The notes beneath the pieces were generated by a model that saw only the letters and a list, made by a program, of their open reading frames with translations, searched no databases and was not told where the DNA came from. This document shows, piece by piece, positions 375-52,800 of a stretch of DNA of 64,000 nucleotides. This DNA is from Siderastrea radians (lineage: Eukaryota; Cnidaria; Anthozoa; Scleractinia; Rhizangiidae): NCBI GenBank assembly GCA_964017195.1, contig OZ024889.1:67962358-68026357 (forward strand). Direction: 5' to 3'. The first letter of the stretch is position 1. Each line of letters starts with the position of its first letter. The translations under genes were made by a program, and so were the position numbers.

Positions 375-812
375 ATGAAGAAATATTTTTGGGTTTTTCT
401 CGTTCTTTTTGCTTCTTTCACTGCCCTACTTGGTCCTTCGGGTTTATGGGCGTGGCGTCGAAGGCGAAGGCAAGGTTGTAATCGGCGAGATTGCATTCTC
501 AACGACTGGGCAAAAGTTGGAAGTTGTTCGTGACCATGCGGAGTGGGAGGAGATCAGTCAGAAAATGGCAATGCAACGGCGGAAAACCCTGTCCACCCTA
601 CAACAGTCCTCAAAGAATGCGTTATTGGCTGTGTAACAAGCAGTGCTGTCGGATTAACTGCGCGTGGACTTGGAGCGCCTGGGGTCCATGTTCTGGCTGT
701 GGAATATCGAGGCAAACGCGTACGGTGAGCATTCTGGGAAATCCTAGATGCGGGGGGAAAGGCGTGTCCAAGCAGGCGGAGTGAGACGCGGAGCTGCAAT
801 ACTGGAGTGTAA
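375..812 (+). pseudogene. TSR array exon, copy 1 (broken)
   Basis: This copy of the array exon should encode a secreted protein of about 150 residues: signal peptide, Trp plus Arg tract, two thrombospondin type-1 repeats. The start ATG at 375 and the hydrophobic leader (MKKYFWVF...) are intact. Codon 53 is TGA at 531-533, where intact sisters have CGA in the CSRTCG motif. A deletion of roughly 15 bases follows, moving the rest (CRINCAWTWSAWGPCSGCG) into another frame, and an extra base in a G-run near 752-760 shifts the final CGG segment again. The 3' end keeps the splice-donor-like GGAGT|GTAAGT (808/809) that overlaps the terminal TAA. Loss of the coding frame is directly visible. A residual role, for example as an untranslated first exon, cannot be excluded. 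Confidence 0.85.
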
Positions 813-1766
813 GTTGACGAGCTTTATTCTTAGTTTCAAGCGAGATATGCCCGAGATTAAGAGGTATAGGGCAGACCAAAGATGGGTTCAACAGCCTTTT
901 ACACCAAAATATAAAAGAGTTTCACACAGAGTAATTAAGGATAGCGTACATATCTTCTCGGCTAAGTTCACAAAATAAGCCTTTATGTTTTTCGCCCTTG
1001 GGTAATCCTGCTTAGGTTGGTAAATTATTCAGTTAATGGGCTGCATTACCCGCGCTTGTTTACTGGGCGAAAACAACAACACTGTGAGTTGAAGTAAAAC
1101 TGGCTGTGGGCAAAGACCCATAGCCGGTTTATTAATCAACAAGTAACTTGTTTAACTCAGTATATAATTAGTTCGGTACATAAATGTATTTTGTTCTGAA
1201 TCAAGGCCTGTTTTGCAACGTCTTTATCTGCAAAAGACGAGTACAGCGTACAATTACCAGGGCTTTTTGGCTCAATCGAATTAGTATAGGTGGGATATTA
1301 CTCATGAAAGCTTGTAATCAATGTAGACAAGATACTTAAACGAAACGCAAAAAATTGAAATGATATAAATGAAGGAATAAAAAATCTTTTATCTGAAGAC
1401 AAATGTGTCAAGTAATGTCGTTCTCGCACTTTTGTATGAGTCATCGGGCGAAAATCCTAAAAACTGTGTAACAGTACTTTCATGTAATGATGGGTTATCA
1501 TGTTATAAAGGTGGTTTAAGACTTTGGATGAAATACGCATTAGAGTGTAACCCCTTAAATGAAACCTATTGTGCAGGACTTTCCTGAAGTTGCTGTTAGG
1601 TTGCTCAATCCTAACAGCGTTGGGGATTTTTAAACTCTTTGCCTTTTTTTCTTCAAAGGAAACCAAAATGCTCCAAATGAATTATTTTGAACGCATCTGA
1701 ATTGTCCGACTTGACACGGATCAAATTTTCCTGACCTGATGTTAAACGTGCCACTTTGCTACTTAA
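813..1766. other. Non-coding array spacer after copy 1
   Basis: No gene is seen. The first 500 bp resemble the sequence after copy 3 (13,014-13,390), sharing a 'ggttcaacagccttttacac' block. The stretch near 1,400-1,600 resembles 18,705-18,870 and 22,668-22,860. It is duplicated intron or spacer sequence of the array. The short open frames in it have no recognisable domain. Confidence 0.6.
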
Positions 1767-2566
1767 GGGACCGTTCATTTTTTATGAGGTAGTCAGGTAG
1801 GGTGGGCTGGTGGGATTTGAGGGGGGCCATGTAAAAACATATGGCTTTAAAGGGGGGGGGGCAGCCAAAAAAATATGGTGTGTGAAGGGGGGTCACCAAA
1901 AAAATTGCCTTTAAGTTTAGTAGTGACAGCTTCTGTAATAATGCAAACATCAGTGCCAGAAGGCCAAAAATAGCGTTTCTAAGGTTCTGAAAATTCAAAT
2001 TTTCCCGGGGGAGAATGCCCCCGGACCCCCCTACTTCGTTATACACCCAACGGCTACTCTACCCCACGACTTATTTCATAACAAAATACAGCCAGGGGAA
2101 TGTCAGCTCTTTTTTCCCCTCTGCTAGTCCGATTCTTAAACAACTGAACAACTGATAATAATGTCCAAAACAATGCTTTAACCCAGTATCAATTGTCTGT
2201 TTATGTACTTCAGAATGCAGCAAATTGCATTAGAGCATCTCCAAATTTTCGAAATTTTCCAGGGGAAGATACTTCTTGAACCCCTACCAGAAAATTACCT
2301 TTAGTGCTTGTCTGAATAAAGACATTTACTCCTGCAGGACTTGAGTGTTAAAATTGACTGTTAAATTTTCAGCTTGATAAGTTTTAGATTTACTTTATCC
2401 CTTTTTTTTCTCTTTTTTTTGGGGGGGGGGGTCATCTCAAATATTTAGGACTACAAGGGGGGGCAGGTAAAAAATTTATAATGTAGAGGGGGGGTCATTA
2501 CATTTTACAGGTACTACCCATTAAATCCCACCAGCCCCCCCTACCCCATAAAAAATGAACGGTCCC
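1767..2566. mobile_element. Non-autonomous DNA element, 800 bp, TIRs GGGACCGTTC
   Basis: The ends are inverted repeats of about 50 bp: GGGACCGTTCATTTTTTATG at the left, and its complement before 2566, followed by a shared 'gggctggtgggattt' block. TAA lies immediately outside both ends (1764-1766 and 2567-2569), a likely 3-bp target duplication. The interior is G-rich and non-coding. Three-base TAA duplications with GGG ends suit a PIF/Harbinger-type MITE; that family assignment is inference. Confidence 0.75.
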
Positions 2567-4860
2567 TAAGTATCCGACAAACAGACAGTAAATTATTTGC
2601 CTCGAATAATAACTAAGGTCACCTTCTAAAGAATTTTCTGTGGTTAGCCATGTTAATAACAGCTTTAAGAGAAGTTGACGTAATGAAATTTATTCTGTAT
2701 AAAAGTTGTACAATAATTTTGGGCATCAACAAAAAACTGGTCGGATACTGGGCACCTTTGTTCAAAAAGTGAAAACTGCTAACTCCTATTGTTCTAAAAA
2801 TTTCAAATCTAATTAGAAATTCCATATCGATCTGAAAGCGTGACCTCTTTAAATATCCTAACACCAAATATGTTACTTCTTTCTCAAAAATATTGCATGC
2901 ATCAGTTAAGAAGAATCAAATTTAACCCTTGATCTTACTCATCTAACAAGAACGGCGCCTTCTACGAATCTCCGTTGAGCTTTAAGTCGGTTAAAACAAG
3001 CGAAAGGAAGCTTCAATAATTACCTTTTTTCGGAGAACGCATCTTTCTGCAAATTTTAAGCGCGAAACAACAAATTAAGTTAAAGTTCTATTGGTCGGAT
3101 ACTGAACAACATACTTTATGTGAATCGCGCGGACAAAAACAAAAATATGAGTGGAGGATCATCGCAGCGATTTAGGAACTTCAGTCTAGAAAAAATCCTC
3201 TTTAAACGGGACAAGCTCTCTTGATGTAATGTTATAAACGTTGTAACATGCTGTAACAAACGGGACTCCATCAAGAAAACTACTTCCACGTCCGAATTGC
3301 AATCAGTCTCAGACGTGTTCAAGATGTCGCGTAGTTGATTTCCCAAATAACTGTAATATTGACTAAAGAAAACATTACCCCTCTTAATTGTGTTATTTTT
3401 GGGTTTTCGCACTCCCGCACACGAAGATCAACCACTGAATATAGCATACACACCGTATTTATTTACCTATAAGCCGAGCTTGGCTATAAGCCGAGACACT
3501 AAAGTCATAGACTTTTGAAAAAAAATTGGAAAACTCTTCGCTGTAAGCCGAGTCCTAAATTTCTCAAAAAGGTTTACCTTTTTATTAAGCTCTCCAAATA
3601 GGTTTTTCATCTGCAATTTATGGAATAGTGTTGACCGTGATAATGAGTAGCACGTTTTGCAATACGAGGGCTCTTGGCTGAACTTCTGATCTTGCCGGAA
3701 TTGAAGAAGCTAATAAGCTTTGTCATTTTTCCAAAATATTCATTGCTAGGGGTATGATGTTACTCAAGCTTGTGGTCAATGAGAAGAAGGATTTTAACGA
3801 AACAAGAGTAACTGCATTGATATGAATATAAAAAGAATATACAACAAACTTACTTTGCTTTATTAATTTTCTCAGTAAATCGCGGAATGCGCTTGTTCGA
3901 TCAGAACAGTTACAACGCGCGTGTGAGGAGAGTTTCAGCGCGAGGGGTGCATAGTACTAAAGGAAAAAGCTGTATTTTGGAAGTCGTGGCAATTTCATCT
4001 CCTGAATAACTATGGTCTCTTCATCACCGTTATTTATTTTATTGTCATCATTTTTTTTGTGTGTGTGTGTACAAAAGAATTGAAGAATCCCGGTGCGTCT
4101 GCGGAAACAACAGGATGTGTTCCAACATTTACAACGTATTATAGAAATAAAAGAAATCCTTGTATAAACCTTTTAAGAAATAATCGATCACGTTTAGCGG
4201 TTTGAGGGCAACTGACGTAACCCTTGAGCTATTTACAGGATCAACGCTTGTATCACGTATACAAAATCGTAAAAACTGACCGTAACGAATACCATTTAGC
4301 CATACTGTGGTGCTCTTTATTACACTTTACACTGAGCTGGTTCTGAGTTTTGAGTGTGTGAATGAAATCCTGACTTGTGACCATTAAAATAAAGCTAGTT
4401 GAGCAGTACTTTCCTGTGGTGCTGTTTATTATGCTGGTTCAAGTGGTTCTATCTTCTGAGTCTGACGGAAAAATCTTCAAGTGAGGCTACTCAAAAGAGA
4501 GTTATTGCGCGGTTCGGTCAGCAAACTATACACCAGCGTGATAGCCTAATTAGTTCCAAAATAAGATAATAAAGCTTAAAAAGTTAATAAAACTTTCTGA
4601 AGTGGAGAACGTGTTTAAAGAAGTGTATGTAAGTGAGCCTGATCCATCCAACTTGCAAAATATTTTCAGAGTAATTTTACACTGTTATTTCGTTAGCTGT
4701 GAAATTCGTCGAATAGTTTACCTCGGGATCATGACAGGCTTTAGGGGCTTTTGTCTTTATAAACAGCCTGTTAGTTTTATGTTACTTTTTACTGTAAAAA
4801 CAACAAAAAGCATGATTAAAATCGACCTCAAGTATAGCTGATATGCTGATTTTAAATCAC
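2567..4860. other. Array spacer, paralogous to about 13,400-15,170
   Basis: No gene is seen. From about 2,935 the sequence runs collinear with 13,420 onward (for example the 'aggaacttcagtct' and 'catgacaggctttagg' blocks), so it belongs to a tandemly duplicated block. A single insertion at 3449-3628 interrupts the match. Near 4,280-4,500 it contains diverged units of the 106-bp minisatellite found throughout the array. Confidence 0.6.
3449..3628. mobile_element. 180-bp insertion with 'ataagccgag' repeats
   Basis: The paralogous block near 13,910 passes directly from 'gagtagcatacatatc' to 'ttgaccgtgataa', whereas here about 180 bp intervene. The insert carries three copies of a 'taagccgag' motif. 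No clear terminal repeats or target duplication could be fixed by eye, so the class is unknown. It is a recent presence/absence difference between two array blocks. Confidence 0.5.
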
Positions 4861-5150
4861 ACGTGCTGTAAATTCCGTTTATGCACACAACTTCAAAGCA
4901 AACTGTCCTTTTAATTTTACTTTCTTTATCGTCGATTTCTCAACTACAGGAAGCCACAAGCTTTCAACACGCCAACAAGTGACAGTGTTGTTCCTCGATC
5001 GGTTTGGACACGTAAGAAAAGATGCTTAAGAAAGGGGATCAAATTAAATAAATCCAGCCCGACCTTAGTGGCCAATGGCTCAGTTTTATTGTCGCGCGTT
5101 ACGTAATACACTTCCATCACCGCGATAAAACAGTTTAATTTGACCAACTG
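4861..5150 (+). promoter_or_regulatory. Orphan promoter-like module without exon (1)
   Basis: This matches the upstream module of the TSR exons ('gtgctgtaaattcc', 'gccacaagctttcaacac', 'gatcggtttggacacg', 'ggggatcaaattaaataaat'). Where the ATG should be, the sequence reads GCGATAAAACAG and no TSR exon follows. A near-identical orphan sits at 15,170-15,450. It is probably a relic, or a promoter detached from its exon. Confidence 0.5.
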
Positions 5151-5181
5151 TTAGCTTTTGCTGTGATCCGCCAGTTTCTCA

Positions 5182-6445: not shown

Positions 6446-6465
6446 TTAATTCGAAGTTTGTATAT

Positions 6466-6501
6466 GTAATCGCATGAGGCCGAGTAGAATTAAGGATAAA
6501 T

Positions 6502-8987: not shown

Positions 8988-9434
8988 ATGACGAAATACT
9001 TTTGGGTTTTTCTCGTTGGTTTTGTTTCTTTCACTGCCCTGCTTGGGCCCTCGGGCTCGTGGGCTTGGCGTCGAAGACGTAGTTGTTCGCCGAGAAATTG
9101 CGTCCTCAACACATACTGGACAAACGCTGGAAGGTGTTCACGAACATGCGGAGGGGGGAGAGTTCTTCAGAGGAAATCGGTCAGAATATGGCCATACTGC
9201 GGAGGAAGAGCCTGTCCGCCTTACAACAGTCCTCAGCGAGTGCGTTATGGGTCTTGTAACACACGGTGCTGTCGCGTTAGCTGCATTTGGACTTGGAGTG
9301 CCTGGGGTTCGTGTTCCGGCTGCGGGATATCGAGGCAAACACGTACGGTGCGTATTCTGCGATATCCTAGATGTGGGGGAACGTCGTGTCCAACTATTCG
9401 GAGTCAGACGCGGAGCTGCAATACTGGAGTGTAA
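8988..9434 (+). CDS. Secreted two-TSR protein / candidate alternative first exon, copy 2
   Basis: The open frame of 148 codons begins MTKYFWVF. Residues 1-26 form a hydrophobic signal peptide with probable cleavage near SWA; Trp-Arg4 follows. TSR 1 (about residues 32-94) contains CSRTCGGG, which fits the O-fucosylation consensus C-x-x-S/T-C-G, and ends in SCNTRCCRVSC. TSR 2 (about 95-148) has the C-mannosylation-type WSAW and stops at CNTGV, before the last expected Cys. The frame ends GTG TAA, but this TAA lies within the splice donor GGAGT|GTAAGT (exon end 9430). Donor phase 2 matches the acceptor at 52,056, which would add the missing CCPVNC. It is either a short secreted matrix or adhesion protein or the N-terminus of the large TSR/cadherin protein. 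No inactivating change is seen. Confidence 0.8.
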   Translation: MTKYFWVFLVGFVSFTALLGPSGSWAWRRRRSCSPRNCVLNTYWTNAGRCSRTCGGGRVLQRKSVRIWPYCGGRACPPYNSPQRVRYGSCNTRCCRVSCIWTWSAWGSCSGCGISRQTRTVRILRYPRCGGTSCPTIRSQTRSCNTGV

Positions 9435-11225: not shown

Positions 11226-11589
11226 AAATCAGATTAAGTAGTCAACAGACATCAAACCGTTTAGACCAGTGTGGTAGTCTTCTTCGATCCAAAATAAGAA
11301 CAATGAGAACAACAGTTTATATTAATCATGAGTTCTTAATGGGTGGTTCTCTTGCTTGTGAACCATTCCATTCTTCCATTCTTACTACGTGTGAACCATT
11401 CCATGTTACAAACTCAACGTTTTTAGCGTAATTTTACCCGGGTCATTTCGCAAGCCTAATTTAACCGCGCGATCCTTAAAGGGCATTCGGGACCTTTACT
11501 GGATAGCTGCATTATACAGTAAAACAAGGCAATTTCAATCCATCTCATGTAAGTATATACTTGTTTGCTGATTTCTATACTTTCGTGAC

Positions 11590-11838
11590 CTTTGTGCTGT
11601 GAAATCTGAATCTATGCACAAGCTTAAAGAAAACTGAAAACCAACTTATTCATCGATTCCTAAAGAATAGGCACCCAGGAATTTTGAGCATTCCAAATGT
11701 TTGTTCCTAAATCGGTCTGTACCGGTAATAATAGGTACTTCTTAGAAGGTCGATCGAGTTAAATAAACCTATCATGGTTTCAATAGCCAGCAGCACTGTT
11801 GCACGCTACACTTCAATCACCATAAAGAAATATTTTTT
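11590..11838 (+). pseudogene. Relic of a TSR array exon: promoter module plus mutated start
   Basis: The upstream module ('ttgtgctgtgaaatctgaat', 'taggcacccaggaattttgagc', 'gttaaataaacctatcatgg') matches that of copy 5 (21,125-21,365). At the start site it reads ATAAAGAAATATTTTT (11822) where copies read ATGAAGAAxTATTTTT, so the ATG has become ATA. After about 17 bases the homology jumps to sequence that lies about 900 bp downstream of copy 5 (near 22,280), so almost the whole exon has been deleted. It is a dead copy that shows the array once held at least one more member. Confidence 0.75.
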
Positions 11839-12520
11839 ACAGTATACGTAAACGAGGAAAATGGGGAACACGCAATAAGGATTTGAGCACAAGGGTTAGC
11901 AGTGACAAAAAAGACAAAACCTGTATTTTAGAAATTGTTACTCTCTCTAACGCAAGTTAGTGCATCTGCGAAGCTATTGGGGTTGGACGTGGTGACCACT
12001 TTTCAAATAAAGTTAGGAAAAAGTCCATTTTTTAAATTTATATTTGTTACTCAGAAAATAGTAGGATGCCGAGACGACCTGCACCTCTCTCTCCTGTGTA
12101 ACTACTGCCTGTTCATCGCCACTGGTTTTTTACAAATAAAACAACAACAACAAACAAACAAACACTACAAAACAGAGTGAAAATGAGGCAAAGTGCATGA
12201 AGGACAAACGCGATGTGTTGTAGCATTTAAGGCGTGTGTTTCTAGTGCAAAAAATGGTCTGAAACAATGGATTACGGTTGCGGTCTGAAGGCAAAGACTT
12301 GAAGGGCAAAGACTTGAAGGCACGAAGACGTAATCAACATGTATGCACAGCAAGAAGAGAAAAGTGGGAGAACACAGAATGATCAAGATGTGAAGAAGCC
12401 GGTTCCTAATCCTCTCGCAAGCCAATAGCTCTACCATTTTGAATTCAATCCCTACTGATGAGGAAGCAAGACTTCTTCCACGTCACAAAAAAGTGTTCTC
12501 TCCTCTCCTCTTTTCCTTAT
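11839..12520. other. Spacer fused by deletion, paralogous to about 22,280-22,660
   Basis: No gene is seen. The segment matches intron-side sequence after copy 5 ('acacgcaataagg', 'gacaaaaaagacaaaacctgta', 'gtaggatgccgagacgacctgc'), then a (CAA)n-like stretch near 12,145. It joins the relic at 11822 to copy 3. Copy 3 keeps only about 60 bp of the usual upstream module. Confidence 0.6.
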
Positions 12521-12577: not shown

Positions 12578-13013
12578 ATGAAGAAACATTTTTGGGTTTT
12601 TCTCGTTGTTTTTGTTTCTTTCACTGCCCTGCTGGGTCCTTCGGGCTCATGGGCGTGGCTTCGAAGGTGAAGGCGACGATGTAAGCGGCAAGATTGCATC
12701 CTCAACCCATACTGGACAAACGCTTGAAGTTGTTCGCGAACATGCGGAGAGGGAAGAGTTCTTCAGAGGAGATCAATCAAAACAAGGACGTTGTCCGCCT
12801 TACAACAGTCCTCAAAGAATGCGTTATTGGCCATGTAATACGCAGTGCTGTCGCTTTGACTGTGCGTGGACGTGGAGTGCAAGGATTCGTTGTTCCGGGT
12901 GCGGGATATCGAGGCAAACACGTACGGTGCGCATTCTCCGATATTCTAGATGCAGGTGAACGGCGTGTCCAAGCAGGTGGAATGAGACGCGAAGCTGCAA
13001 TACCGGAATGTAA
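12578..13013 (+). pseudogene. TSR array exon, copy 3 (broken)
   Basis: Start and leader (MKKHFWVF...SGSWAWLRR) are intact, but codon 31 is TGA (12668-12670) inside the Arg tract (CGA in sisters). A second TGA replaces GGA before the SCSRTCG segment. About 14 bases are missing after 'atcaatcaaaaca', shifting the frame, and a third stop replaces GGA after 'YSRC'. TSR cysteines are recognisable across frames (NTQCCRFDCAWTWSA). The splice-donor-like GGAAT|GTAAGT at 13009/13010 is preserved. The usual promoter module is truncated to its last 60 bp. Multiple independent lesions and a lost promoter make this a firm pseudogene. Confidence 0.88.
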
Positions 13014-17046: not shown

Positions 17047-17502
17047 ATGAAAAAATATTTTTGGGTTTTTATCGTTGTTTTTGTTTCTTTCACTGCCCTT
17101 ATTGGTCCTTCGGGATTGTGGGCCTGGAGGCGAAGGCGAAGACGGCGTAGTTGTTCGCCGAGAAATTGCGTACTCAACACATACTGGACAACCACTGGAA
17201 GGTGTTCGCGAACATGCGGAGGGGGTAGAGTTCTTCAGAGGAGAACAGTGAAAACATGGCCTTACTGTGGGGGAAGAGCCTGTCCGTCTTACAACAGTCC
17301 TCAACGAATGCGTTATGTGTCGTGTAACACGCAGTGCTGTCGCGTTAATTGTGCGTGGACATGGAACGCTTGGAGTGCGTGTTCCGGCTGTGGTATATCG
17401 ACACAAACGCGTACGGTGCGCATTTTGCGGAACCCTAGCTGCGGAGGAACGCGGTGTCCAACTATTCGCAGTGAGACGCGGAGCTGCAATACTGGAGTGT
17501 AA
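17047..17502 (+). CDS. Secreted two-TSR protein / candidate alternative first exon, copy 4
   Basis: This is an intact frame of 151 codons starting MKKYFWVF. An in-frame ATG 36 bases upstream is rejected because it lies in the conserved leader region of the module and would put polar residues before the signal peptide. The order is signal peptide (to about residue 26), W-R7 tract, TSR 1 with CSRTCGGG and the linker SCNTQCCRVNC, and TSR 2 with TWNAW and SGCG, ending CNTGV. TSR 2 lacks the usual Thr before its third Cys, so no O-fucose site is expected there. The donor GGAGT|GTAAGT (exon end 17498) overlaps the terminal TAA. It is the closest relative of copies 2 and 6. Extracellular adhesion or matrix function follows from the TSR family; partner unknown. 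Confidence 0.82.
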   Translation: MKKYFWVFIVVFVSFTALIGPSGLWAWRRRRRRRSCSPRNCVLNTYWTTTGRCSRTCGGGRVLQRRTVKTWPYCGGRACPSYNSPQRMRYVSCNTQCCRVNCAWTWNAWSACSGCGISTQTRTVRILRNPSCGGTRCPTIRSETRSCNTGV

Positions 17503-21365: not shown

Positions 21366-21819
21366 ATGAAGAACTATTTTTGGGTTTTTCTCGTTGTTTT
21401 TGTTTCTTTCACTGCCCTGCTTGGTCCCTCGGGCTCATGGGCGTGGCTTCGAAGGCGAAGGCGAAGATGTACGCGGCGAGATTGCGTCCTCAACACATAC
21501 TGGACAAACGCTGGAAGTTGTTCACGAACATGCGGAGGGGGGGAAAGTTCTTCAGAGGAGATCAATCAAAACACGGGGATCCTGTAGAGGAAAACGCTGT
21601 CCACGTTACAACAGTCCTCAACGAATGCGTTATTGGCCATGTAATACGCAGTGCTGTCGCGTTGACTGTGCGTGGACATGGAGCGCCTGGGGTCCGTGTT
21701 CCGGCTGTGGACTATCGAGGCAATCGCGTACTGTGAGCATTCTACGAAATCCCAACTGCGGGGGAACGTCGTGTCCAAGCAGGCGGAGTGAGACGCGGAG
21801 CTGCAATACTGGAGTGTAG
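21366..21819 (+). pseudogene. TSR array exon, copy 5 (single +1 frameshift)
   Basis: Start, signal peptide (MKNYFWVF...GSWAW), Arg-rich tract and first half of TSR 1 are intact through SCSRTCGGG. A G7 run at 21,537-21,543 has one base more than sister copies allow, so the frame ends at residue 73. From just after this point the alternative frame is intact to the end (VLQRRSIKTRGSC...SCNTGV), with all TSR 2 cysteines. The donor is GGAGT|GTAGGT (exon end 21815), slightly weaker than the GTAAGT elsewhere. With one lesion in a homopolymer, this may be a recent pseudogene, a polymorphism, or a sequencing error; if corrected it would be a normal family member. Confidence 0.7.
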
Positions 21820-24380: not shown

Positions 24381-24413
24381 CGCTGTACTTTCGCGCGCTG
24401 CACCTCGATAAAC
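24160..24413 (+). promoter_or_regulatory. Promoter-like module of TSR exon copy 6
   Basis: The second copy of the duplicated module, with 'gtgctgtgaaatttgacta', 'gccacaagctttcaacac', 'cgtcgatcggtttagacagg' and 'gaggatcgaatataataaac' about 70 bp before the ATG at 24414. Confidence 0.5.
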
Positions 24414-26421: not shown

Positions 26422-27044
26422 CGATAAAAAAGCAATGCTGATTCAACGGTAGGGAAACTGTATATTTACCAATATTTCAAAAGGCACAGCCTTTCTTCTT
26501 CAGGGTCTTACAGAGAATGACTCTAAGGGCAAAAACGTTACAATTTAAACTAAGGGTATAAAATGTGATACTAAAATAACAACTAAAGCAGCTTGTATTA
26601 CAACGTTAAAAAACTGGCGTAAAAAATAAAAACGTTACGATTTGAAATTTATATTTAAAGAAGCTAATATTACAACGGTAAAAAACTGGCGAAAAAACTA
26701 AAAACGTTGCGATTTAAAATTTGAAAAATATACAACATAAGTAGGATACGTGATACTATAATAACATAAGCTTAAGTGATAGGGATAACGTACCGCGTTA
26801 AACTCTAAATACATTTCAATAAGAAATAAGAAAGTGGAAAATACCAAACAAATACCACCCCCCCCCCCAAAAAAAAAAATTACAACTGAAAATACAAACA
26901 AACACGGAGGATGAAAAACCGGAAAAAGTGTCATGTTTCATCTCTCCTATTTAAACCTAGTGGTTCTAAGGTTTGACCTCTATCGATGAGGTATGCTTCT
27001 CTAGCTTTACGTACACTGTCACGGTTAGATTTAATAAGTTCAAG
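26422..27044. repeat. Inverted repeat, left copy of Penelope-like element 1
   Basis: It pairs with 28,959-29,579. It contains the 3' end of the element's gene (codons 662-699) and the 3' non-coding tail, including a C9/A9 tract near 26,860-26,880. Confidence 0.9.
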
Positions 27045-32905: not shown

Positions 32906-34886
32906 TCAAATTATAGTTTTGCTCTAACAAGTATGTCTTTAAGGGATTTACCCTTTTTGAAAGAGATAATCGGAGGATTTTTAAAGATTGTTTTCAGCAA
33001 AGGCTGATCTTGTATCAGGCTCCATTGTTCCATCAGTATTTGTTTAACATTTTTAACAGCCGGATGGTATGTGGTTACAATGTTTTTTACAATGTTCGCC
33101 GAAGGCGTTTGGATGAGAGGATGCCTATTTACATTTTTTTGCTTGCTAACTGAGGGTACATTGTTAGCCCTCCGTTTTTGGCTCTCGAGCCTTCGTTTGT
33201 GGAAGCGAGTAAGGGCATCAACTAAGCTTTGTTCAGCTTGCTGTTTGATACCCCTTATTTCTCTATTGAAGGTGGTATCTGGCGTAATGTTTGGTTTCGC
33301 CGTATATTGCAAAGATTTCGTTTCATGTTAAATCACAATGGATGCCACCGGTTCAACCTTCTATTGCCCTTGAAAGCTACTTGGAAAATGTCAAAATACA
33401 ATTAGCGGAAATCACGCTCACTAAGCCTAAAAACAACCTGTCACGCAATGAGGTCATAGCCCTAAAAGAGTTGAAAAATAACCCTGCTATCAACCTCAGA
33501 AAAGCAGACAAAGGAACTACAACAGTCATCATGAATAAGCAAGCAAAAATAAATGAGGCTCAAGTGCAACTCGACAACAGAGAGCACTATAAACCTCTTA
33601 AAGCACCGATAGTTAAAAACACGCATGATAAGGTTAATGAGATAATTGACCAAATGCATCGGGGCAAACACATTGATGACATGACCAAAAACTGGCTTCT
33701 CCAAACTCCCAATCCGCCTAGAATACCAATATTCTATACGCTTACAAAAATCCACAAACCAATACCGGTCGGAAGACCAATAATCTCAGGTTGCGACGGC
33801 CCTACTGAGAGAATATCATCATTTGTGGATACACTGCTCCAGCCTATCGCACAAACACAAAAGTCCTACATCAAGGACACAACCGATTTTATAAATTTTA
33901 TAGAAAAAACAAAGATAGGCAAAGATACTATTTTAGTATCAATGGACGTATCTAGCTTGTACACAAATATACCACAAGAGGAAGGAACGAATATAGTATG
34001 TGAAGCATACGAAAAGTTCCACAACTATAACACACCGATTCCAACACACCACCTTAGGGAGATGCTTGGCTTAATCTTAAAAGAAAATTCGTTTCAATTC
34101 AATGAGGAAAACTATCTTCAAACACATGGAACGGCTATGGGAACAAAAAATGGCAGTATCATTTGCCAATATATTCATGGCTGAAATTGAAACAAAAATA
34201 ATTCTACAAAGCGATACCAAGCCAAGAGAATGGAAACGTTACATTGATGACGTTTTCTCCCTTTGGGACAATGATAAAAAAGACATGGATCGGTTTATTG
34301 AACAAGCTAACAAATTCCACCCTACCATTAAATTCACGGCCGAGATATCAGAGAACGAAATTACTTTCCTAGACACCACAGTGTTTAAAGGGGAAAGATT
34401 CAAACAAGATTCCATCCTGGACATCAAAACACACTTCAAGCCGACCGAGACTTTTCAATTTACACACTTTGCTTCGTGCCACCCACCTGGCGTCAAATAT
34501 GGTTTCATTAAAGGCGAAGCAATAAGATTGCTCAGAACAAACTCTTCGAAAAAAACGTTTGAAGAGAGCCTTGTGAAATTCAAACAACGCCTCAAAGCAC
34601 GCGGGTATCCCGAAAACACCATAGAAAGGTCTCTGTCAGAGGTCAACTTTGCCTCTAGACAATCGGCACTCACACAAAAGAAAAAAAGTCACGAGAGGAT
34701 TCTGCCTTTTGTAACCACATACCACCCGGCTGTTAAAAATGTTAAACAAATACTTATGGAACAATGGAGTCTGATACAAGATCAGCCTTTGCTGAAAACA
34801 ATCTTTAAAAGTCCTCCGATTATCTCTTTCAAAAAGGGTAAATCCCTTAAAGACATACTTGTTATAGCAAAACTATAATTTGAAGG
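32906..34886 (+). mobile_element. Penelope-like retroelement 2, truncated, with inverted 3' copy
   Basis: The + strand gene (33,291-34,878) is preceded by an inverted partial copy of its own end: 32,906-33,072 is the complement of about 34,715-34,886. This repeats the head-to-head arrangement of element 1 in a distant relative. The segment 33,073-33,290 between them encodes a minus-strand frame of unknown origin (Lys/Arg/Gln-rich). Confidence 0.8.
33291..34878 (+). pseudogene. Penelope-like reverse transcriptase, frameshifted and lacking GIY-YIG
   Basis: The frame from 33,291 encodes RT motifs up to MDVSSLYTN and THGTAMGTK. An A6 run at about 34,145-34,150 has one extra A, and the frame continues 1 base off through MAVSFANIF, the catalytic YIDD (WKRYIDDVFSLWD), ITFLDT and the region before the nuclease, ending SLKDILVIAKL-stop at 34,878. 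In element 1 the equivalent position (LLVSAKL) is followed by a Cys motif and a GIY-YIG domain; both are absent here. It is about 30-40% similar to element 1 by eye, so it is a different lineage. Inactive as it stands because of the shift and 3' truncation. Confidence 0.85.
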
Positions 34887-36180: not shown

Positions 36181-39100
36181 TTAAGAGCCATTTTCTGAGA
36201 ATATCGAGAATCGAAAGACACTCACGAAAAATCCAATTTTTTTTTATTTTGCCAAAAAATCCCTTTGGGTAAGCTAATTCAAGAAAAAATAATCCAAAGT
36301 TCCAATGAGTTATTTAACGGACGAAAATTTAAAAAGTTCGAAAAATGCATAAAATGGCGGTTTTAGGGTCTCTAAACGGGTCAAATTCTCACTCAACTTT
36401 AGGAAGCCAGTGAGAGCGTAAAAAAGATTTTTTTCAAACGAAACAAATCATGAACATTATTTAACCTTTGTACTTTAAAACGGTGTAATAAATTTGTCAA
36501 CGTTTGGTTTCGAACATTTTCAAGCGGCGTTCTTATCGAGCCGCTCTTAACCTCGTTTATCACAAGGTAAAATGAAGGCCAACTTCGGCCGCTTAAAACG
36601 GCATCTGGTATTATCATTCAACGATTAAGACTACACAGAAAGGAAGCTCTGTCATTGTACTTTTAACCAGGAAAGTTACAGCTTTGGGAATTAAATACTT
36701 CCCCGTCAGTAAATTTTTACTGTTTAGTGATCTGAGCGGGAAGAACTTTTTGCAAATTACGGATTTAATTCCTGGAATACTGCTAACAATTACAAAGGTC
36801 GTTAAAGATAGGCTTACCATTAGTTACACCTGCATGCACAATGTTTTTCCTGTTCTTTGAAAGAAGGTTCTGCTTTCTTGAGTGGTGCTGAGTCTTATTA
36901 TGTTAAAACAAAGCAGATTTTTAACGGCATTTCAACAAGACAGGAATCCACTCATTCACCTGAACCAAGATAACATCGAAAACACTGTGAAACAACGTAT
37001 TATGCCGCCTACCTTGCCAACCAAAAAAGCAACAATACAATAGAAAAACCTTTCAAACTGTAAACAAACGAATGTTCAGTATCCTGATCGAGCGAAGATA
37101 ATTTAAACTCATCGCGTAGAGGAATAAGCGGAAAGACAGGTGACCTCTGCACTGACCTGCACGTGTCACACCACACTGACAGAGAGAGTCACGCATTCCA
37201 GTTCTTTGATGTGATTTGAGATAAAAACTTGGTGGAAAGTTAAAAAGAAAAAAACCAAAACTTGCAATACTTGGCTAGTACGTTGTTGGATCACATGTTA
37301 GCATAAGCTCCACAAAGGAGTTTTTACGGTCACGACTCTTTCTATAAAGCGCGGTAATTTTGCAATGTATACGTAAGTGCTGTTGTAATTTTACTTCTAA
37401 TTTAATTACAGCTCATGAAATAAAATAAACATTGCAGTAAGTTACGTTCAGAGTGTGTAAGTACTGATATTTGGCGTCGTGTAGTTTTTCCGCTTTTCTG
37501 CAGAGGGTTACTGCCTGTGGATTAAGCAGTGATTACCCTGGCCACGTTTCCCTAAAAGAATGCACAAGAGACATCTCACGGCATCTTCAATTGCACGGAC
37601 AAAGTGCAGATAAAGCGGTTCACTGTGAATTCAAGTTGTTAGCCCGAGCAGGTAATGCTATTGCATTTTGTTCTGGATTTACTTACTTCATAGCACTCGG
37701 CGTCCCTTAATCTAGGTTCTGCAGAGTCGTGCTACTGCTGTGCCCTCCGGCGCCCGGGGGGGGGGGGGGGAGGAAGAACGGGGTCTTTTGATCAATGTTT
37801 GGGTGTAGGTTCAAGCTGCGAGTTTGACACCCTGACCCTGTTTAGGACAGAAAAACAAAATGGAATGTCGATCGTGCTGACCATACCCGGTTGGGGAAAA
37901 TCCGCATATACCATGTTTAGGGGCAGAGACCAAAAAATCATATTCTGTCCAGCGGCACACCCCAGTACTGACCACATAAGGCAGTAACCCTCCCTTCCGG
38001 GGGGTGGGTGGGGGGGCGTGCTTAGCCTTACCTCGCTCAACTGTAGCACAATATTCATCGACCATAGCACGATGTGATTATTGAACTTCCCCTGATGTAA
38101 TCTTCCTTGGCAGCAGTTTGAGCGAGCGAGACGCGGAAGCCACGCGGGCCCATGTGAGAACTCGCCCACATGTTACCTTTTCTCGCTTTGCTATTTTAGC
38201 TTGCGCTTCCTTGGTTTTTGCGTCATGAGGTTGGAAGCTTAGAGTTCAAAGTATATTTATCTTTGATTTTTTGGTTATTTGGGCATTTTTTCAGTAGAAG
38301 AGTCCCACCAATATGTCCTCGCCACAGAGCGGAGTTTGGTATTCGCTGGAGATGCTCTAAAATGAGAAGTAGTGTTCCTCCTGAAATGGCCGCACATAAA
38401 ACAGCCACAGCTGTGGCTGTTTTATGTGCAGCCATTTCAGGAGGAACACTTCATCTCACTGTAGAGCATCTCCAGCGAATGCCATACTGCACTCTGTGGC
38501 GAGGACATATTGTCAATGACAGGTGAGACTCTTCTACTGAAAAAAAAGCCTAAATAACCAAAAATCAAAGATAAATATACTTTGAACTCTAAGCTTTCAA
38601 CCTGATGACGCAAAAACGAAAAAAGTGCAAGCTAAAATGGCAAAGCGAGAAAAGGGATCATGTGGGCAAGTTCACGCATGGGCCTGCGCGGTTTCCGTGT
38701 CTCGCTCGCTCGAACTGCTACCAAGGAAGATTGCATTGAAGTTCAATTTTCGGCGTCTGAAGTCATACCGTGCTATCGTCGTGCTAAACACGGCACCACC
38801 TCGCCCCCCCCCCCCCCGGAAGGGAGGGTTACCCCTTATGTGGACTATACTGGGATGTGCCGCTGGACAGGGTACGGTTTTTGGTCCCTGTCGGGTATGG
38901 TCAGTACGATCGACATTCCATTTCGTTTTTCTGTCCTAAACATGGTCAGGGTGTCAAACCCGCCGAGTCTCCCCTGCACCCAAACATTGATCAAAGTCCC
39001 CCTTCCTACTCTCCCCCCCCCCCCGGGAGTGGCGCGACTCTGCAGAACCTAGATTAAGGGACGCCGAGTGCCACGAAGTATCTGTGGCCAAAATTACGGA

Positions 39101-40569
39101 ACACAGTAATTCCAGAACAAAATGCAATAACATTATCTGCTCGGGCTGTTAAAAAAACAACTTGAATTCACTGTCAACCGCTTTATCTGCACTTGGTCGC
39201 AATTGAAGATGCCGCGAGATGGCTCTTGTGCATTCTTTTAGGGAAACAACTTCAACGTGGCCTGGGTAATCACTGCTTAATCCACAGGCAGTAACCCTCT
39301 TCAGAAGTGCGGAAAAACTAGTTGACGCCAGATATCAGTACAACACACCCTGAACGAAACTTACTGCAATATATACGTACATTACCGCACTTTGTAGAAA
39401 GAGTCGTGACCGTAAAAACTCCTTTGTGGAGGCTAACATGTAATCCAACAACTGAATGTGGCTATCTGTTGCAAGCTTTTTTTTTCTTTTAATTTCCCAC
39501 CAAGTTTTATTCCTGTATTTGTATCTCAAATCACATCAAAGAACTGGAATACGTGACTCTCTCTGTCAGTGTGGTGTGACACGTGCGGGTCAGTGCAGAG
39601 GTCACCTGTCTTTCCGCTTATTCCTCTACGCGATGAGTTTACATTATCTTCGCTCGATCAGGATACTGAAAATTCGTTTGTTTACAGTTTGGAATGTTTT
39701 TCTATTGTATTGTTGCTTTTTTGGTTGGCAAGGTAGGCGGCATAATAGGTTGTTTCACAGTGTTTTCGATGTTATCTTGGTTCAGTTGAATGAGTGGATT
39801 CTTGTCTTGTCGAAATGCCGTTAAAAATCGATCTGCTTTGTTTTAACATAATAAGACTCAGCACCACTCAAGAAAGCAGAACCTTCTTTCAAAGATCAGG
39901 AAAAGCATTGTGCATGGATGTGTAACTAATGGTAAGCCTATCTTTAACGACCTTTGTAATTGTTAGCAGTATTCCAGGAATTAAATCCGTAATTTGCATA
40001 TAATTCTACCCGCTCAGATCACTAAACAGTAAAAATTTACTGACGGAAAAGTATTTAATTCCCAAAGCTGTAACTTTCCTGGTTAAAAGTACAATGACAG
40101 AGCTTCCTTTCTGTGTAGTCTTAATCGTTGAATGATACATACCAGATGCTGTTTTAAGCGGCCGAAGTTGGCCTTCATTTTACCTTGTGATAAACGAGGT
40201 TAAGAGCGGCTCGATAAGAACGCCGCTTGAAAATGTTCGAAACCAAACATTGGCAAATTTATTACACAGTTTTAAAGTACAACGGTTAAATAATGTTCAT
40301 GATTTGTTTCGTTTTAAAAGAATGTTTTTTACGCTCTCACTGGCTTCCTAAAGTTGAGTGAGAATTTGACCCGTTTAGAGACCCTAAAACCACCATTTTA
40401 TGCATTTTTTGAACTTTTTAAATTTTCGTCCGTTAAATAACTCATTGGAACTTTGGATTATTTTTTCTTGAATTAGCTTACCCAAAGGGATTTTTTGGCA
40501 AAATAAAAAAAAATTGGATTTTTCGTGAGTGTCTTTCGATTCTCGATATTCTCAGAAAATGGCTCTTAA
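36181..40569. mobile_element. Imperfect 4.4-kb palindrome bounded by TTAA
   Basis: Arms 36,181-38,410 and 38,411-40,569 are inverted copies with small indels, differing in length by about 70 bp. They meet without spacer at CACAGCTGTG (38,406-38,415) inside a 68-bp near-perfect core. The outer ends read TTAAGAGCCATTTTCTGAG and its complement. Landmarks pair along the whole length, for example the G-run near 37,756 with the C-run near 39,015. No frame encodes a recognisable protein. TTAA at both ends would fit a piggyBac-type target duplication, although the terminal sequence is not the usual CCC. Alternatively it is an inverted duplication from replication or assembly. Confidence 0.8.
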
Positions 40570-46451: not shown

Positions 46452-46870
46452 ATGAAGCTCGCTACGTATTTCGTAGCCCTTCTGTTTGCGGCTATCTTTT
46501 TTTCCTCCGTGGAATCTTGGCGTCGAAGACGTCGAAGACGCTGTTATCGTAACTGTTCTCCCGAAAGTTGGGGTCCCTGGAGCACCTGTTCAAAGTCGTG
46601 CGGCACGCGCGGGACGCAGGTCCGCAAGAGAGGAATTGCCGTGCCTGCTATATGCGGTGGATCGTGCAACGTTGCGTTAAGAGAGACGAGGCGCTGCAAC
46701 ACACACTGCTGCCCGGTCAGTTGTGCATGGAAATGGAACGGGTGGAGTGCGTGCCAGGGTTGTGGCATGTCCAATCAAATGCGCACCATGCAGATTACAC
46801 AAAAACCGAGTTGCGGAGGAACGGCATGTCCGATTACGCAAAGCCAGACGCGAAGCTGCGATACCGGAGT
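46452..46870 (+). CDS. Exon 1: signal peptide, Arg tract, TSR 1-2
   Basis: It encodes residues 1-139 plus two bases. The leader MKLATYFVALLFAAIFFSS differs from the array copies (MKKYFWVF) but is followed by the same W-R7-C arrangement. TSR 1 has WGPWSTCSKSCG and ends RRCNTHCCPVSC; TSR 2 has KWNGWSACQGCG and stops at CDTG before its last Cys. The donor is GGAGT|GTAAGT, phase 2. If unspliced, TAA at 46872-46874 follows at once, giving a 140-residue secreted protein; an AATAAA at 47055 could serve that form. Homology to the six array exons covers the whole exon. Confidence 0.88.
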
Positions 46871-49800
46871 GTAAGTTGGAAAGAGTTTGCGCTGCTTTCG
46901 TTATTTTCCACGTTTATTTTTGAACTTAGTTTTGTTGTTGACATAGCTGCTATGTTGTGTGACAATTAGCGGGAATACAATAGATCTACAGCATTTCATA
47001 TTAAGCCATTAGTATAAAGCCCTTGTTGAGTTACACTTAGTTGTTTATAACATAAATAAAGTCTTAATTTTTTAAGTTTCCCTCTAGCCCTGCAGTGTAT
47101 TTAAACGGACACACGCTCCATCACTTGCACTGCACTGCACTAGCACTACAGTGTATTTAAACGGACACACGCGCCATCACTTGATATCCTCAGCGAGAGA
47201 CCGTAGTGCGGGAGTGAGATTTATTTTCACTAATTCTTCTGACCTCAAAAAATCCGCTGGGAGATCAATTTTTGTCCGTAACAACGGGTCGTTTGTAATG
47301 GCATGATGTCTGCACGAGATTTTGTTGTAATAGGTTGTTGCCGTTACACAATTATTGCCTGCGGCAAACGGAGTTTTGTTGCCTCATAGAGTGTAATTTG
47401 ACTCGTTAGGGTTGTATGGAAATGCTTTCACGTAAAACTGGGGGTAGATCAAGAGAGCAGGTTTTAGTCCTTTTCACTCTATGACGCCTTCTTAACTGGA
47501 AAAACTCAAAAAAAAATTTTTCTTTTTTGCAAAATATCCCAAAACAAACAGCATCACAGGAAAATTTTGCTGAATGACTTCTCTATATCAAATGCGCACC
47601 ATGCAGATTACACAAAAACAGAAATGCGGAGGAACGGCATGTCCGATTACGCAAAGCCAGACGCGAAGCTGCAATACCGGAGTGTAAGTTGGAAAGAGTT
47701 TACGCTGCTTTCGTTATTTTCCACGTTTATTTTTGAACTTAGTTTTGTTGTTGACATAGCTGCTATGTTGTGTGACAATTAGCGGGAATACAATAGATCT
47801 ATAGCATTTCATATTAAGCCATTAGTATAAAGCACTTGTTGAGTTACACTTAGTTGTTTATAACATAAATAAGGTCTTAATTTTTTTTAAGTTTCCCTCT
47901 AGCACTGCAGTGTATTTAAACGGACACACGCTCCATCCCTTGCACTGCACTGCACTAGCACTGCAGTGTATTTAAACGGACACACGCGCCATCACTTGAT
48001 ATCCTCAGCGAGAGACCGTAGTGCGGGAGTGAGATTTATTTTCACTAATTCTTCTGACCTCAAAAAATACGCTGGGAGATCAATTTTTGTCCGTAACAAC
48101 GGGTCGTTTGTAATGGCATGATGTCTGCACGAGATTTTGTTGTAATAGGTTGTTGCCGTTACACAATTATTGCCTGCGGCAAACGGAGTTTTGTTGCCTC
48201 ATAGAGTGTAATTTGACTCGTTAGGGTTGTATGGAAATGCTTTCAGGTAAAACTGGGGGTAGATCAAGAGAGCCCGTTTTAGTCCTTTTCACTCTGTGGT
48301 TTCACTAACTATTAGGACGCCTTCTTAATTGGAAAAACTCAAAAAATATTTTTCTTTTTTGCAAAATATCCCAAAACAAACAGCATCACAGGCAAATTCT
48401 GCTGAATGACTTCTCTATTTAAAATAAGTGGACTCTCTTTAAGAGGGCTTTACGCTAGAGGTATTGAAGTACAAACTATTGAACGCATGCCACAAAGCAC
48501 ACAGTCATCCTCCAGGTTTGGCAAGAGTGGCTGCCACGTGCACTGTTAAGTTACCTGAATGACTTCTGCTTTGGAGTGGTCTCACTTCAAGGGGGCTTAA
48601 AGTTTTAAACCAAAGATACTGATGTACAGCACTGAATGCATGCCATAAAGCACATATCTCCCAGGTTTAGCCAAAATTGCACCCACATGCACAGCTAAAT
48701 TACCCACTGAGTGGCAGCAGCCATTGACAGCAAGACTGTTCACAGCCATTTTACCCGCAGGGCTATTTCACCCGAGGGTGTTTTTCACTTTTAAAGCTCA
48801 AAAACATCAACTCGTGGCTAATGTGGAGGCTTAACAGCTTATTTTCATTTCTCCCTCCCATCACGTAGACGACATTTGTTTTGGATTCATCATTCTTTTT
48901 AGGGACAACCCAATTACACTCCAAACATCTTGATAGGCCAAAAACCGCAACTACTTGCCACAAGTGTATTGTTTTATTCAGTTTCAAGTATGACCAAGGT
49001 TAAACTGTCAAATGTTTATTTTATTATTATCCTGATAAGCATTTTTTTTCCGTTTGGTGTACACTGTAATGCATTGTGTCCGAAGTCCAACCACTATCAA
49101 ATTTTTGAGGAACAATATGACAATTTAAGAGGGTCCCCAATAAGGTTCTTCAATCCCGTCATCCCGACCCAAATTTTCCCTCAATCCCGTAATCCCGACG
49201 GTTTCTATCGGCTTATCCCGATCCCGAACATGCGTTTTAAAAAGTGCCTTTCAGAGGTTCCAGATTCCCTCATTTTGTTAACCGACAGAAGATGGTGGGA
49301 TAAGAAAAGTGGTATGGTCAAAATAGGCACGTGCCTGGGTCGAGGAAAATGTGGGTAACCTGTGTTGTCAAAATGAAAGGATTTTTCACTTTTTCTTACC
49401 AGATACTGGTTCTTTACAACCACATTTCCCGAATCTCGCATCGTAAAACCGCTAAATCCCGTATCCCGTTCATAGATTACAATCGCGAATCTCGCTTCCC
49501 CTTTCCTCTACAATCCCGAATCCCGGTCTTCAAATAAGCCAAATCCCAGATCCCGAAAAACCTATTGGGGACCCTCATATAAGGTGCAATTCAAAAACAT
49601 TTCAGTATTAATAAGGAACCTTTATACTGAAGTATCCGGTCAAAGATAGATTTATCTTGTCTATTTTTATCTTTTACGGTGCACCTTGTAAATTTATCTT
49701 GTGATATACATCTGGTGGCGAAAGCTGCTATTTATTCATGTTTTGCGGGCTGCATACCATCTTATTAACCTTTTCGATGACCTATCGTGCCTGGTACTGC

Positions 49801-52800
49801 CACACACGAACTTTCAACAGCGTGCGTAGCGCCGTAGCCTGCAGACGTATTGGTAAGAAATCAAATTTCCTGTAGTCTGGCGCAACAGCAAAATCTTATG
49901 CGCATTACTGACCTCAGTTATAGGAAATCGAGATTTATTTTTGCGGGATTTAATAGTAGACTCAGGATGCTCAAGTCTTGTCTTTAAGCTTCCTTACCCC
50001 AAGTTCTTTACATAGTTCTTAAAGTGTTACAATGTATTTGTTTTCCTTGTCCACATAAACCTTTGAGTGGAAGACACGCCTTGCAGATTATATCAATTAC
50101 ATGTGAAAATGCCCTCTCAACCATCAATTCTGTCATTTATTTTAGCAAGGGAAAACGATTAAACGAAACAAAATGTATTAAAATAGATTTACCATCTCCA
50201 CTTTTTGTATTTTTTGCATTTTTGTAAACTGACCTCTAAGCAAAATTCAGTTCACTGTCTCAGTACAAGAAAAACAATGCTTATTTGTTCAGATTCTTTC
50301 TCGTTTCCTGTGATTTCTAGATTTGGCAAATTATATCTTTTTTCAAAGAAACTAGCGTGAAACTGAATTTTTCATGTAGTTTTTTTTTTTTTTTTTCAAA
50401 AACATCAGGTTGGGTTTCAGTGCACGCTGGGCTGAGCTAAGGAGATTAAAAACAAATCACAAATAATCATAATATATTATCATAACTGATGTATTAGCGG
50501 ATATCTGTTGCCATTCTTTATGCCGGTTAGTTGAAACCATAGGCATTAAACGCTGTAGCCTATGTGCAAGGAAATAGATGACTCTGGGCAAGCTAAAACA
50601 CTGCTGCCCGCTTATTTAACGTTATATATATAATAGCTATCTTTAAAACAAGGAACGGGGGAAAGCCCCGTTTTAAGTTTCCCGTTTGCCCGTTCCTCAT
50701 TCTCCTTGTATACACTGGTGTCTAGTAGTGCAAACAGAGGGTGTGTTGATGTCTTTTGTCTCGAGGAGCTATACAGGACATATCGACACTCTCTTCCATT
50801 TAATAGTTGTCTGTTTCCTTTTCAGCCTCAGCGTGAAAATTACCTTTCACCAGGAGCCCATGACTCTGCTTTCACTTATAAATCATTGCTGATTAAAGAC
50901 TTAACGTTGAAAGGCCACCTTTGGATAAGCACTACATGAGGTTCCTTCGTACCGATGAGAATCGTAGCCTTTCGGGCAGATTAATGTAATTAAGATTGAC
51001 AACCTGATCGGAACTTTGTTGCATTTTCTCTTTCGATCATTTATGGACGTGCAGGGGTTCACAGAGGACCCTGAAGGGAGGGGGATTATCAATATTTCTT
51101 CCTAGCCTAAGTTTCTTTTCAAAACTTCTATTCCTGAACTCTAACTTTGCAATTTTTACCAATCTTAGTCGTCAATTCCAAGTATCAGTCCTTCAATTCC
51201 CATTTTCCAGTAAAAAAGTAAGTGAATCCCCTGTTCCCATTGTAGAATAGGAACAGTGAACAGGACTCCCTTCACAGGTTGACTAATCTTAGCCTGCGTG
51301 CAGACGTCTCCTATTTCCTTCCGCGGGTGGAAGGAAATAGGAGACGTCTGCACGCAGACTAACTAATCTCGGCACATCACGCAGATAATCTAGATCGTCT
51401 GAAAAGGCAAGAAATGTAGGACAAAATACCGGCACCACTGGAGATTATTGCTTAATGACCTCAACGTAGCTTTCTTTTGAATGCACAGACAGTTTTAGAT
51501 CTCATTCAGTTGACTAAATGGGTTATGGAAAAACTCCGTTGCTTTTGCACGAATGTTTACACTTTCGGGTTTCATCCACAGATTCAAAAGTTAGAACCAA
51601 CTTGCACAGCATAATATATCGTACTAAAGTAACGTACTGCCCTTTCATTCAACTGAATGGACGTACTGCATCCAGATACTCAAAATTAGAACCACCTCGT
51701 ACAGCACTGTGTAATGAACATTCCTACAGGAAAATACTGCTCTGTAGCTTTCGTTTGAAAGCTACAATTTAGGATTTTTATCCACACGCTCAAACTGAGC
51801 CGAAAAATGGTAGCCGACTGCATCCTCAGAGTGGAAGAGATGAGACTGTGAGCTGACCATTCATCATCAGTCTTTCGTGCCACTGGGCACATACGGCCTT
51901 GAGATGACACATATAAGGCCTCGAGCTGACCATTGCTGGATCAATATCTGCGAATATGGTCTAATAACAATCAAACCTTTCCACTTCCTTTTTATGTTGT
52001 TTCGAGATTTGTTAGTCACTATTCTCTAATTTTCGTGGTCTTTTTTAACCTCTAGATGCTGCCCAGTGAATTGTGTTGTCAACAGTTGGTCTAGCTGGGG
52101 AGGTTGCAATGCAGCCTGCGAAAAGAACGGGTACCAGCAACGCACTCGGACAGTAAGAACCCAGCCCTCTTGTAAAGGTACCCCGTGCCCAACACTGAGA
52201 GAGACCAAGTCTTGTCGAGGGCCCTGCTGCCCGAGAAATTGTCAGGTAATCAGCTCTCAAACACATTGACAAAAGGACCCTTGGTTTCAGAAATTAAAAA
52301 AAAGGAAAAAAACACACACAAAAAGAAACAAATAGCGCCGAACTAAACTTGATGCTCCAGAAAATCAAAACACGGAGCTAGGCTTCATGAACCAACTTTT
52401 TTACTGTGAGAGTGAAAGTGCTGAGTTGGTAAAGAGGGTAAGCTTTCATGATGTGAACCTAGTGACTTACGACTGTCGGAGCTTAACCCGGTTTCTGGAG
52501 CATGGAACGACCAGGAGCTTTCTTACTAACCCTTGGATGAGTTGCTATTCCATCGTAGGGTACCCCACCACCTTTTCGGTGATTTTTTAGGTTTTTCCTG
52601 ACGTTTCGTTAGCAACCAGAGAGACAAGGGTGGAGCAAAGTTTCTTGTCCAAGGAAACAGCAAAACACGCCGCAGAGGCCAGGCCTTACGCCGCCGGCTC
52701 TAAGTAACTAAGGCCTACGCAGGCGTCGTTTTTGTTTGATAACGTTTGTGTGAAATGAATCGATTGCACTACAATTTAGTTGTTTTACCAGTAAATAATT

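Follow-up and report, generated by a model that had tools for sequence, protein, structure and literature searches.

The stretch of the coral Siderastrea radians genome described here (the window; 64,000 bases, C3:67962358-68026357 of an assembly of 804,772,777 bases in 439 contigs) probably holds a variable-first-exon locus, in which several alternative first exons would supply one giant adhesion receptor with differing tips. We put the probability of this reading at roughly 75 %. On the plus strand the order is a first exon of type C, which lies to the left of the window, six exons of type B (three of them intact), one exon of type A, and then a constant part from position 52056. Tandem first exons on a single strand are followed by one constant set, and they share a single donor phase that fits the acceptor at 52056. 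An initial annotation of this DNA had proposed alternative first exons for one constant gene; the proposal is supported by selection on the intact exons, by conservation of a donor rather than of a stop codon, by a join in a gene model of Desmophyllum pertusum and by a paralogue in the same genome, and the use of distant donors is the part of it that we infer.

First exons of the locus

All seven first exons in the window encode a signal peptide, an arginine tract and two thrombospondin type 1 repeats (TSRs), in agreement with the shared domain content described for them in the initial annotation; they are named below by their start positions. The six tandem array exons span 375-24863 and the related exon lies at 46452-46870, all on the plus strand. 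Three of the six array exons (8988, 17047 and 24414) are intact; frameshifts and/or stops disrupt the other three (375, 12578 and 21366).

375-808, plus strand: array first exon, type B, broken by a 1-nucleotide insertion, a 13-nucleotide deletion and an in-frame stop; donor GT at 809
8988-9430, plus strand: array first exon, type B, intact, with signal peptide, arginine tract and two TSRs; donor at 9431
12578-13009, plus strand: array first exon, type B, broken by in-frame stops and a 17-nucleotide deletion; donor at 13010
17047-17498, plus strand: array first exon, type B, intact; donor at 17499
21366-21815, plus strand: array first exon, type B, broken by a 1-nucleotide insertion; donor GTAGGT at 21816
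24414-24859, plus strand: array first exon, type B, intact; donor at 24860
46452-46870, plus strand: type-A first exon, closest to the constant part; donor at 46871

When the whole assembly was searched with exon 24414, a further intact first exon was found outside the window (C3:67957953-67958368, equivalent to window positions -4404 to -3989, 4.4 kb to the left). It is of type C, has an open frame and ends in AATGT/GTAAGTC, where the slash marks the splice site. The cluster starts outside the window with this exon, and not at 375.

Only TSR families are found by Pfam in the four intact first exons of the window; the TSP1_spondin match passes the cut-off in 24414 and 46452 and falls short of it in 8988 and 17047. 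For exon 24414, fold prediction gives a model (mean predicted local distance difference test score 83, predicted template-modelling score 0.43) that resembles the TSRs of thrombospondin-1 and properdin, with modest template-modelling scores of 0.28-0.48 in the twelve best rows; such a model agrees with the TSR domain call and is silent on ligands. Just past the signal peptide, W27 and R29-R33 (exon 24414 numbering) are nearly invariant (at least 90 %) and C35 is invariant among 54 aligned first exons. Comparable basic tracts begin other cnidarian TSR proteins. Elsewhere in the genome, eleven weak TSR matches at C3:47984207-48042607, several with a spacing of about 3 kb, hint at a further tandem array of TSRs.

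Splice sites and junctions

A phase-2 donor was said to stand at the same residue in all of these exons, and it is present in seven of seven, as GTAAGT in five array copies and 46452 and as GTAGGT in 21366. Each exon closes with the bases GT, apart from 12578, which has AT, and the intact frames end in GT/GTAAGTT, with an apparent stop codon (TAA) inside the donor. There are 31 GT(A/G)AGT sites on the plus strand of positions 1-52000, and only those at 9431, 13010, 17499, 24860 and 46871 end a stop-free run of at least 100 codons; the placement of donors at the ends of the first exons is not due to chance.

The acceptor at 52056 has the sequence CTCTAG/ATGCTGCCC, read as CTCTAG/A TGC TGC CCA. 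A 21-base pattern that combines the acceptor with CCPVNC has its sole perfect match at 52054 and four more matches with 1-2 mismatches, 0.32 being expected in all; within the gene model the only other phase-2 acceptor is at 60941, inside a cadherin repeat. Joined to the twelve constant exons, all four intact first exons of the window remain stop-free to the window end and encode 1,088-1,099 residues. The earlier expectation that any array exon would give CNTG-V-CCPVNC at the junction is borne out for 8988, 17047 and 24414; exon 46452 reads CDTG-V-CCPVNC, and 375, 12578 and 21366 are broken. From the coordinates, the implied introns are about 42.6, 34.6, 27.2 and 5.2 kb for the donors at 9431, 17499, 24860 and 46871 respectively, and 56 kb for the type-C exon. 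An open frame at 48993-49358 (plus strand), with a signal-peptide-like start and no Pfam match up to an E-value of 1, lies inside the 46870-52056 intron.

Exon ends and joins in other records

The ends of homologous exons were compared in an alignment of 77 rows, made up of the four window exons and 73 proteins chosen from protein searches; it leaves aside P0064-P0067, which represent another TSR-EGF type, and most other matches of two of the searches. Nine rows that are partial, frameshifted or unaligned at the end were removed, and 68 were kept, the four window exons among them. Fifty-five of these stop at the shared residue (at a stop codon or the contig end), three continue into CCPV(N/S)C, and ten continue into unlike tails. 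The last residues in the 68 rows are V, M, R, K, A, P, Q and L, all of which can be encoded as NNG, and the ten run-on rows continue with W (seven), Y (two) or S (one), whose codons begin (W and Y) or can begin (S) with T. If residues are read back into codons in this way, the pattern would be accounted for by the fixed G/T of a donor and not by a conserved stop.

These ends bear on the best of the competing explanations, that the array exons each encode a separate short, secreted protein with two TSRs, read from an unspliced transcript up to the TAA in the donor or completed by a short local terminal exon. The intact copies do have a complete open reading frame, signal peptide and stop codon included, the majority of homologous exons (55 of 68) do end at the shared residue, and passages of an earlier report describe TSR-only proteins as numerous in anthozoans (PMC5446238). 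The stop nevertheless overlaps the donor, ten of the 68 homologues pass it through codons that can start with T into tails that are unlike one another, and the D. pertusum gene model joins a type-B exon to a constant exon, so that we regard the short-protein explanation as unlikely.

As regards a terminal exon, the array exons had been described as having no downstream coding exon of their own. We recognized no block common to the array units and found no conserved second exon per unit among 128 stop-free non-exon blocks of at least 30 codons, although blocks were scored only in pairs and a short terminal exon would escape. The 25 blocks with the lowest ratios were inspected, many of them on the minus strand. 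Low-ratio blocks on the plus strand include 3129-3219 (31 codons, 0.17) and 11868-11955 (30 codons, 0.27), and block 4915-5101 (63 codons, ratio 0.20) has few differences and a ratio that is also low on the minus strand.

Named relatives that carry these first or constant exons are P0047 (Desmophyllum), P0068 (Oculina) and P0069 (Exaiptasia). P0047 is the D. pertusum gene model, and its exon-1 part scores a median of 99.4 bits against type B (29 sequences) versus 84.6 against type A (14) and 72.4 against type C (6). The annotation of that genome is described, in the part of the source concerned, as combining RNA-seq, proteins and ab initio predictors with introns of up to 30 kb (PMC10022433), and the join in P0047 may therefore be predicted, not seen. 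First exons are also joined to constant exons in P0069 (named coadhesin, partial) and in P0080, a JGI record of a one-TSR variant. P0166, a JGI record of 725 residues on an 8,744-base contig, is 49 % identical over 671 columns with 8 gaps and has the same exon order, and would represent a spliced transcript. It was recovered in a search with the 1,097-residue model scored on residues 1-215, in which the other of the 80 proteins are mostly other TSR proteins; the scarcity of receptor matches there probably reflects a full receptor longer than the length limit of the search, to judge from the open segments downstream.

Within the same genome, contig C8 carries a paralogue whose type-A exon ends in a phase-2 donor and is followed 1.1 kb downstream by AG/ATGTTGTCCTGTG. 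Its donor reads AAT/GTGAGT and its acceptor AG/ATGTTGTCC; the first exon is broken near the signal peptide, and two constant-type TSRs come after it (C8:26650001-26660000, at about 2250-4160).

Selection on the array exons

The three intact array exons are under purifying selection as coding sequence. Their pairwise ratios of non-synonymous to synonymous divergence (dN/dS) are 0.174, 0.232 and 0.311 (Fisher p from 2e-5 to 3e-11), with dS of 0.33-0.59. Ratios of non-synonymous to synonymous changes private to one copy are 0.31, 0.29 and 0.37 for the three intact exons (binomial p 0.0065, 0.0048 and 0.016), so that each intact exon is constrained as a separate copy, and 0.74, 0.57 and 1.06 in the broken copies (p 0.3, 0.13 and 0.64), which are compatible with decay; the counts are small, at 13-27 private changes per copy.

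The initial annotation saw in this system a means of diversifying the outermost TSR pair, but within the array the sequence is constrained and not rapidly diversifying. Rapid diversification by positive selection was rejected for the array, since dN/dS among the intact exons is 0.17-0.31 overall, and the highest value in any exon part is 0.52 (first TSR, 17047 versus 24414). When type A is compared with type B, dS is mostly saturated and dN in the first TSR is 0.76-0.88, and selection at the origin of the types is consequently neither shown nor excluded.

The same data speak to a second alternative, in which the array consists of relics, stray duplicates of first exon and promoter that are no longer expressed. 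Half of the copies are broken, and P0015, whose first part is nearly identical to exon 8988, does not keep the frame. A relic of a promoter and a partly duplicated exon are also present in the vicinity:

11472-11837, plus strand: relic of the array upstream block without an exon, with ATA at the ATG position
47589-47683, plus strand: partial duplicate of the 3' part and donor of exon 46452, without a start codon, belonging to a duplication (46774-47593 and 47587-48425, 94.9 %)

Against the relic reading stand the constraint on the private changes of every intact copy, the dS noted above and the recurrence of type B in 29 protein clusters beyond the window's three, and we find this alternative distinctly improbable. 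A tandem duplication of 0.7 kb (22979-23691 and 23687-24388, 93.7 %) stops 25 bases short of the ATG of exon 24414, whose upstream region is thus present twice.

Three types of first exon

Two trees, each midpoint-rooted for drawing only, separate the first exons into types. The first contains 68 of the 77 rows, seven having been dropped by name and P0028 and P0047 for a length below 110 residues, and has a type-B clade of 32 rows (support 100/96) and a type-A clade of 15 rows that includes 46452 (100/99). The second contains 67 rows, with the long-branched P0060, P0061 and P0069 omitted and the upstream exon and C8 paralogue added, and has type B with 32 rows (100/99), type A with 16 (100/99) and type C, including the upstream exon, with seven (99/95). 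The nearest row to exon 24414 is P0001, at 94 % identity. On these trees the array exons are a separate, well-supported type B and not recent copies of exon 46452; the age of the split would be read from the spread of the types over other records. The types differ in the WxxWxxC motif of the first TSR, which occurs in none of the 32 type-B rows, in 12 of 15 type-A rows (the three exceptions have, by eye, an insertion between the tryptophans) and in 19 of 21 other rows. P0002 (type B) and P0036 (type A) both have a longest contig of 834,199, which suggests that the two types share a contig in another genome.

That the array might instead be the 5' ends of a different gene, with a constant part lost or unrecognized between the array and 46452, fits the distinctness of the exon types and the 21.6 kb with reverse-transcriptase-like open reading frames (ORFs) in between, but the first exon that precedes the array belongs to yet another type (C), and we consider this a very remote prospect.

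The reverse-transcriptase ORFs between the array and 46452 are at 26931-29030 (minus strand) and 33291-34878 (plus strand), and we take them, by eye, to be of the Penelope-like type. An inverted repeat at 36181-37358 and 39381-40569 has 1.2-kb arms that are 93.9 % alike. A viral contig scan found no relative.

The constant receptor

The constant exons in the window encode TSRs, an EGF-like module, a cysteine-rich module and cadherin repeats, in that order.

52056-52245, plus strand: first constant exon, TSR, beginning CCPVNC; phase 2 in and phase 0 out
53685-53858, plus strand: constant TSR exon
54652-54871, plus strand: constant TSR exon
55601-55878, plus strand: constant TSR exon
56169-56288, plus strand: constant TSR exon
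58683-58836, plus strand: constant EGF-like exon, with Pfam cEGF in the aligned part of P0047
59493-59692, plus strand: constant cysteine-rich exon, sushi/CCP-like by eye
60082-63998, plus strand: cadherin-repeat exons (60082-60278, 60941-61049, 61813-61962, 62572-62991, and 63366 to the window end, past which the gene continues)

The TSR block 53685-55878 (exons 53685, 54652 and 55601) has phase 0 at both ends and is missing from P0047, and it may at times be skipped in frame. Downstream of the window, Pfam Cadherin is found in six of six scanned segments, together with EGF domains. Also present there are a single strongly hydrophobic helix (YVIGGIGALLLLVIVIGLLLC), a tail that contains NPIY, NPIY, NPMY and NPMF, and another open segment, which has NPMY. 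The downstream segments would be part of one transcript with the constant exons. TSR, EGF and cadherin domains were found in the segments scanned, and no Ig domains.

Proposed mechanism

We propose that each of the intact first exons (one of type C, three of type B and one of type A) would have its own transcription start and would supply the signal peptide, the basic tract and the outermost two TSRs. Splicing would then connect the exon of the chosen promoter with the one phase-2 acceptor at 52056 across 5 to 56 kb, bypassing the other first exons. Since a first exon without an acceptor cannot be included when an upstream first exon is used, promoter choice is the simplest model. The invariant remainder would comprise further TSRs, EGF and sushi-like modules, numerous cadherin repeats, EGFs, one transmembrane helix and an NPxY-rich tail. 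The locus would thereby yield a single giant receptor in a limited, fixed number of isoforms that differ at the tip.

Each exon had also been credited with a promoter module. An upstream block of at least 250 bp is common to another copy in five of the six array exons, with only about 55 bp in 12578, and TATAAAAG starts 58 bp upstream of the ATG of exon 46452. These blocks and TATAAAAG are the sole features that point to promoters, whose activity is putative.

Several observations weigh against the variable-first-exon reading. The upstream blocks may be relics of duplication and not promoters, and half of the array is broken. The likeness among the six copies does not fall exactly at the donor; in 75-base steps the exon has a mean pairwise identity of 80-87 %, and sequence outside it does not exceed 71 %, while in 10-base steps the first 20 intron bases match the exon level (82-89 % alike) and 81 % is attained in one stretch of the leader. 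Splicing would have to span long introns of 27-56 kb, and use of donors so far away in this species is deduced from the DNA. Protein searches return open frames only, so that estimates of how well intact exons are conserved elsewhere are skewed upward, and the ends of those exons, whether stop or contig end, are not distinguished. P0047 starts inside the first exon and lacks its 5' part, in addition to the possibility that its join is a prediction, and in a pattern scan of the 220 fetched proteins it alone has a type-B join, which no transcript-like record shares.

A more speculative and rather doubtful extension of the variable-first-exon reading is that the locus would be a cnidarian counterpart of the clustered protocadherins, in which a cell or tissue picks one old TSR tip of an NPxY-tailed receptor for recognition of self, microbes or algal symbionts. 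Under that extension promoter choice would switch ligand class, since type-B tips systematically have no WxxWxxC in the first TSR.

Comparison with known systems

The arrangement has parallels among nerve-cell recognition genes of other animals. The sDscam proteins of chelicerates are Ig/FNIII receptors. Their genes have tandem 5' cassettes, each preceded by a promoter and joined to a constant exon, according to passages of PMC4835542. The coral locus resembles them as an invertebrate adhesion receptor with outermost domains made variable by tandem 5' cassettes. In the same passages the sDscam cassettes consist of two or four exons and encode Ig domains, one gene has at least 40 of them, and RNA evidence is given (PMC4835542), whereas the coral cassettes have one exon each, two TSRs and few intact copies, and are predicted from DNA. 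In the vertebrate clustered protocadherins a promoter precedes each first exon, which is spliced to common exons (passages of PMC4835542; see also parts of PMC7811963). The coral locus is similar in its tandem first exons before common exons and in encoding a transmembrane receptor with cadherin repeats, and its first exons would likewise have their own promoters. In clustered protocadherins the variable cadherin ectodomain is encoded by the first exon and the tail by the constant exons, while the coral first exon encodes a TSR pair only and the cadherin repeats are in the constant part. Tandem variable first exons with their own promoters and a common downstream set are also described for UGT1 in sections of PMC3325998 and PMC1885805, which shares the layout but produces an enzyme and not an adhesion receptor.

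The anthozoan TSR repertoire is large and tied to symbiont uptake, according to passages of PMC5446238; those passages describe no variable first exons, and the words cadherin, splice and exon are absent from its main text. No cnidarian variable-first-exon cluster appears in the titles and abstract openings among the literature matches listed, a coverage that most subscription journals fall outside. Some short TSR-only coral gene models may be unspliced first exons of much longer proteins. If transcripts confirm the model, a non-bilaterian animal varies the outermost part of a large membrane receptor by tandem first exons, and this route to cell-surface diversity would have evolved anew, or far earlier, using another domain. 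It would also offer a concrete set of isoforms for coral allorecognition and symbiont uptake, in the latter of which TSRs are implicated by passages of PMC5446238. The locus falls in neither the sDscam nor the protocadherin family, because its variable exon codes for TSRs; by layout it would belong with the variable-first-exon clusters, and by analogy it would work like sDscam and the clustered protocadherins.

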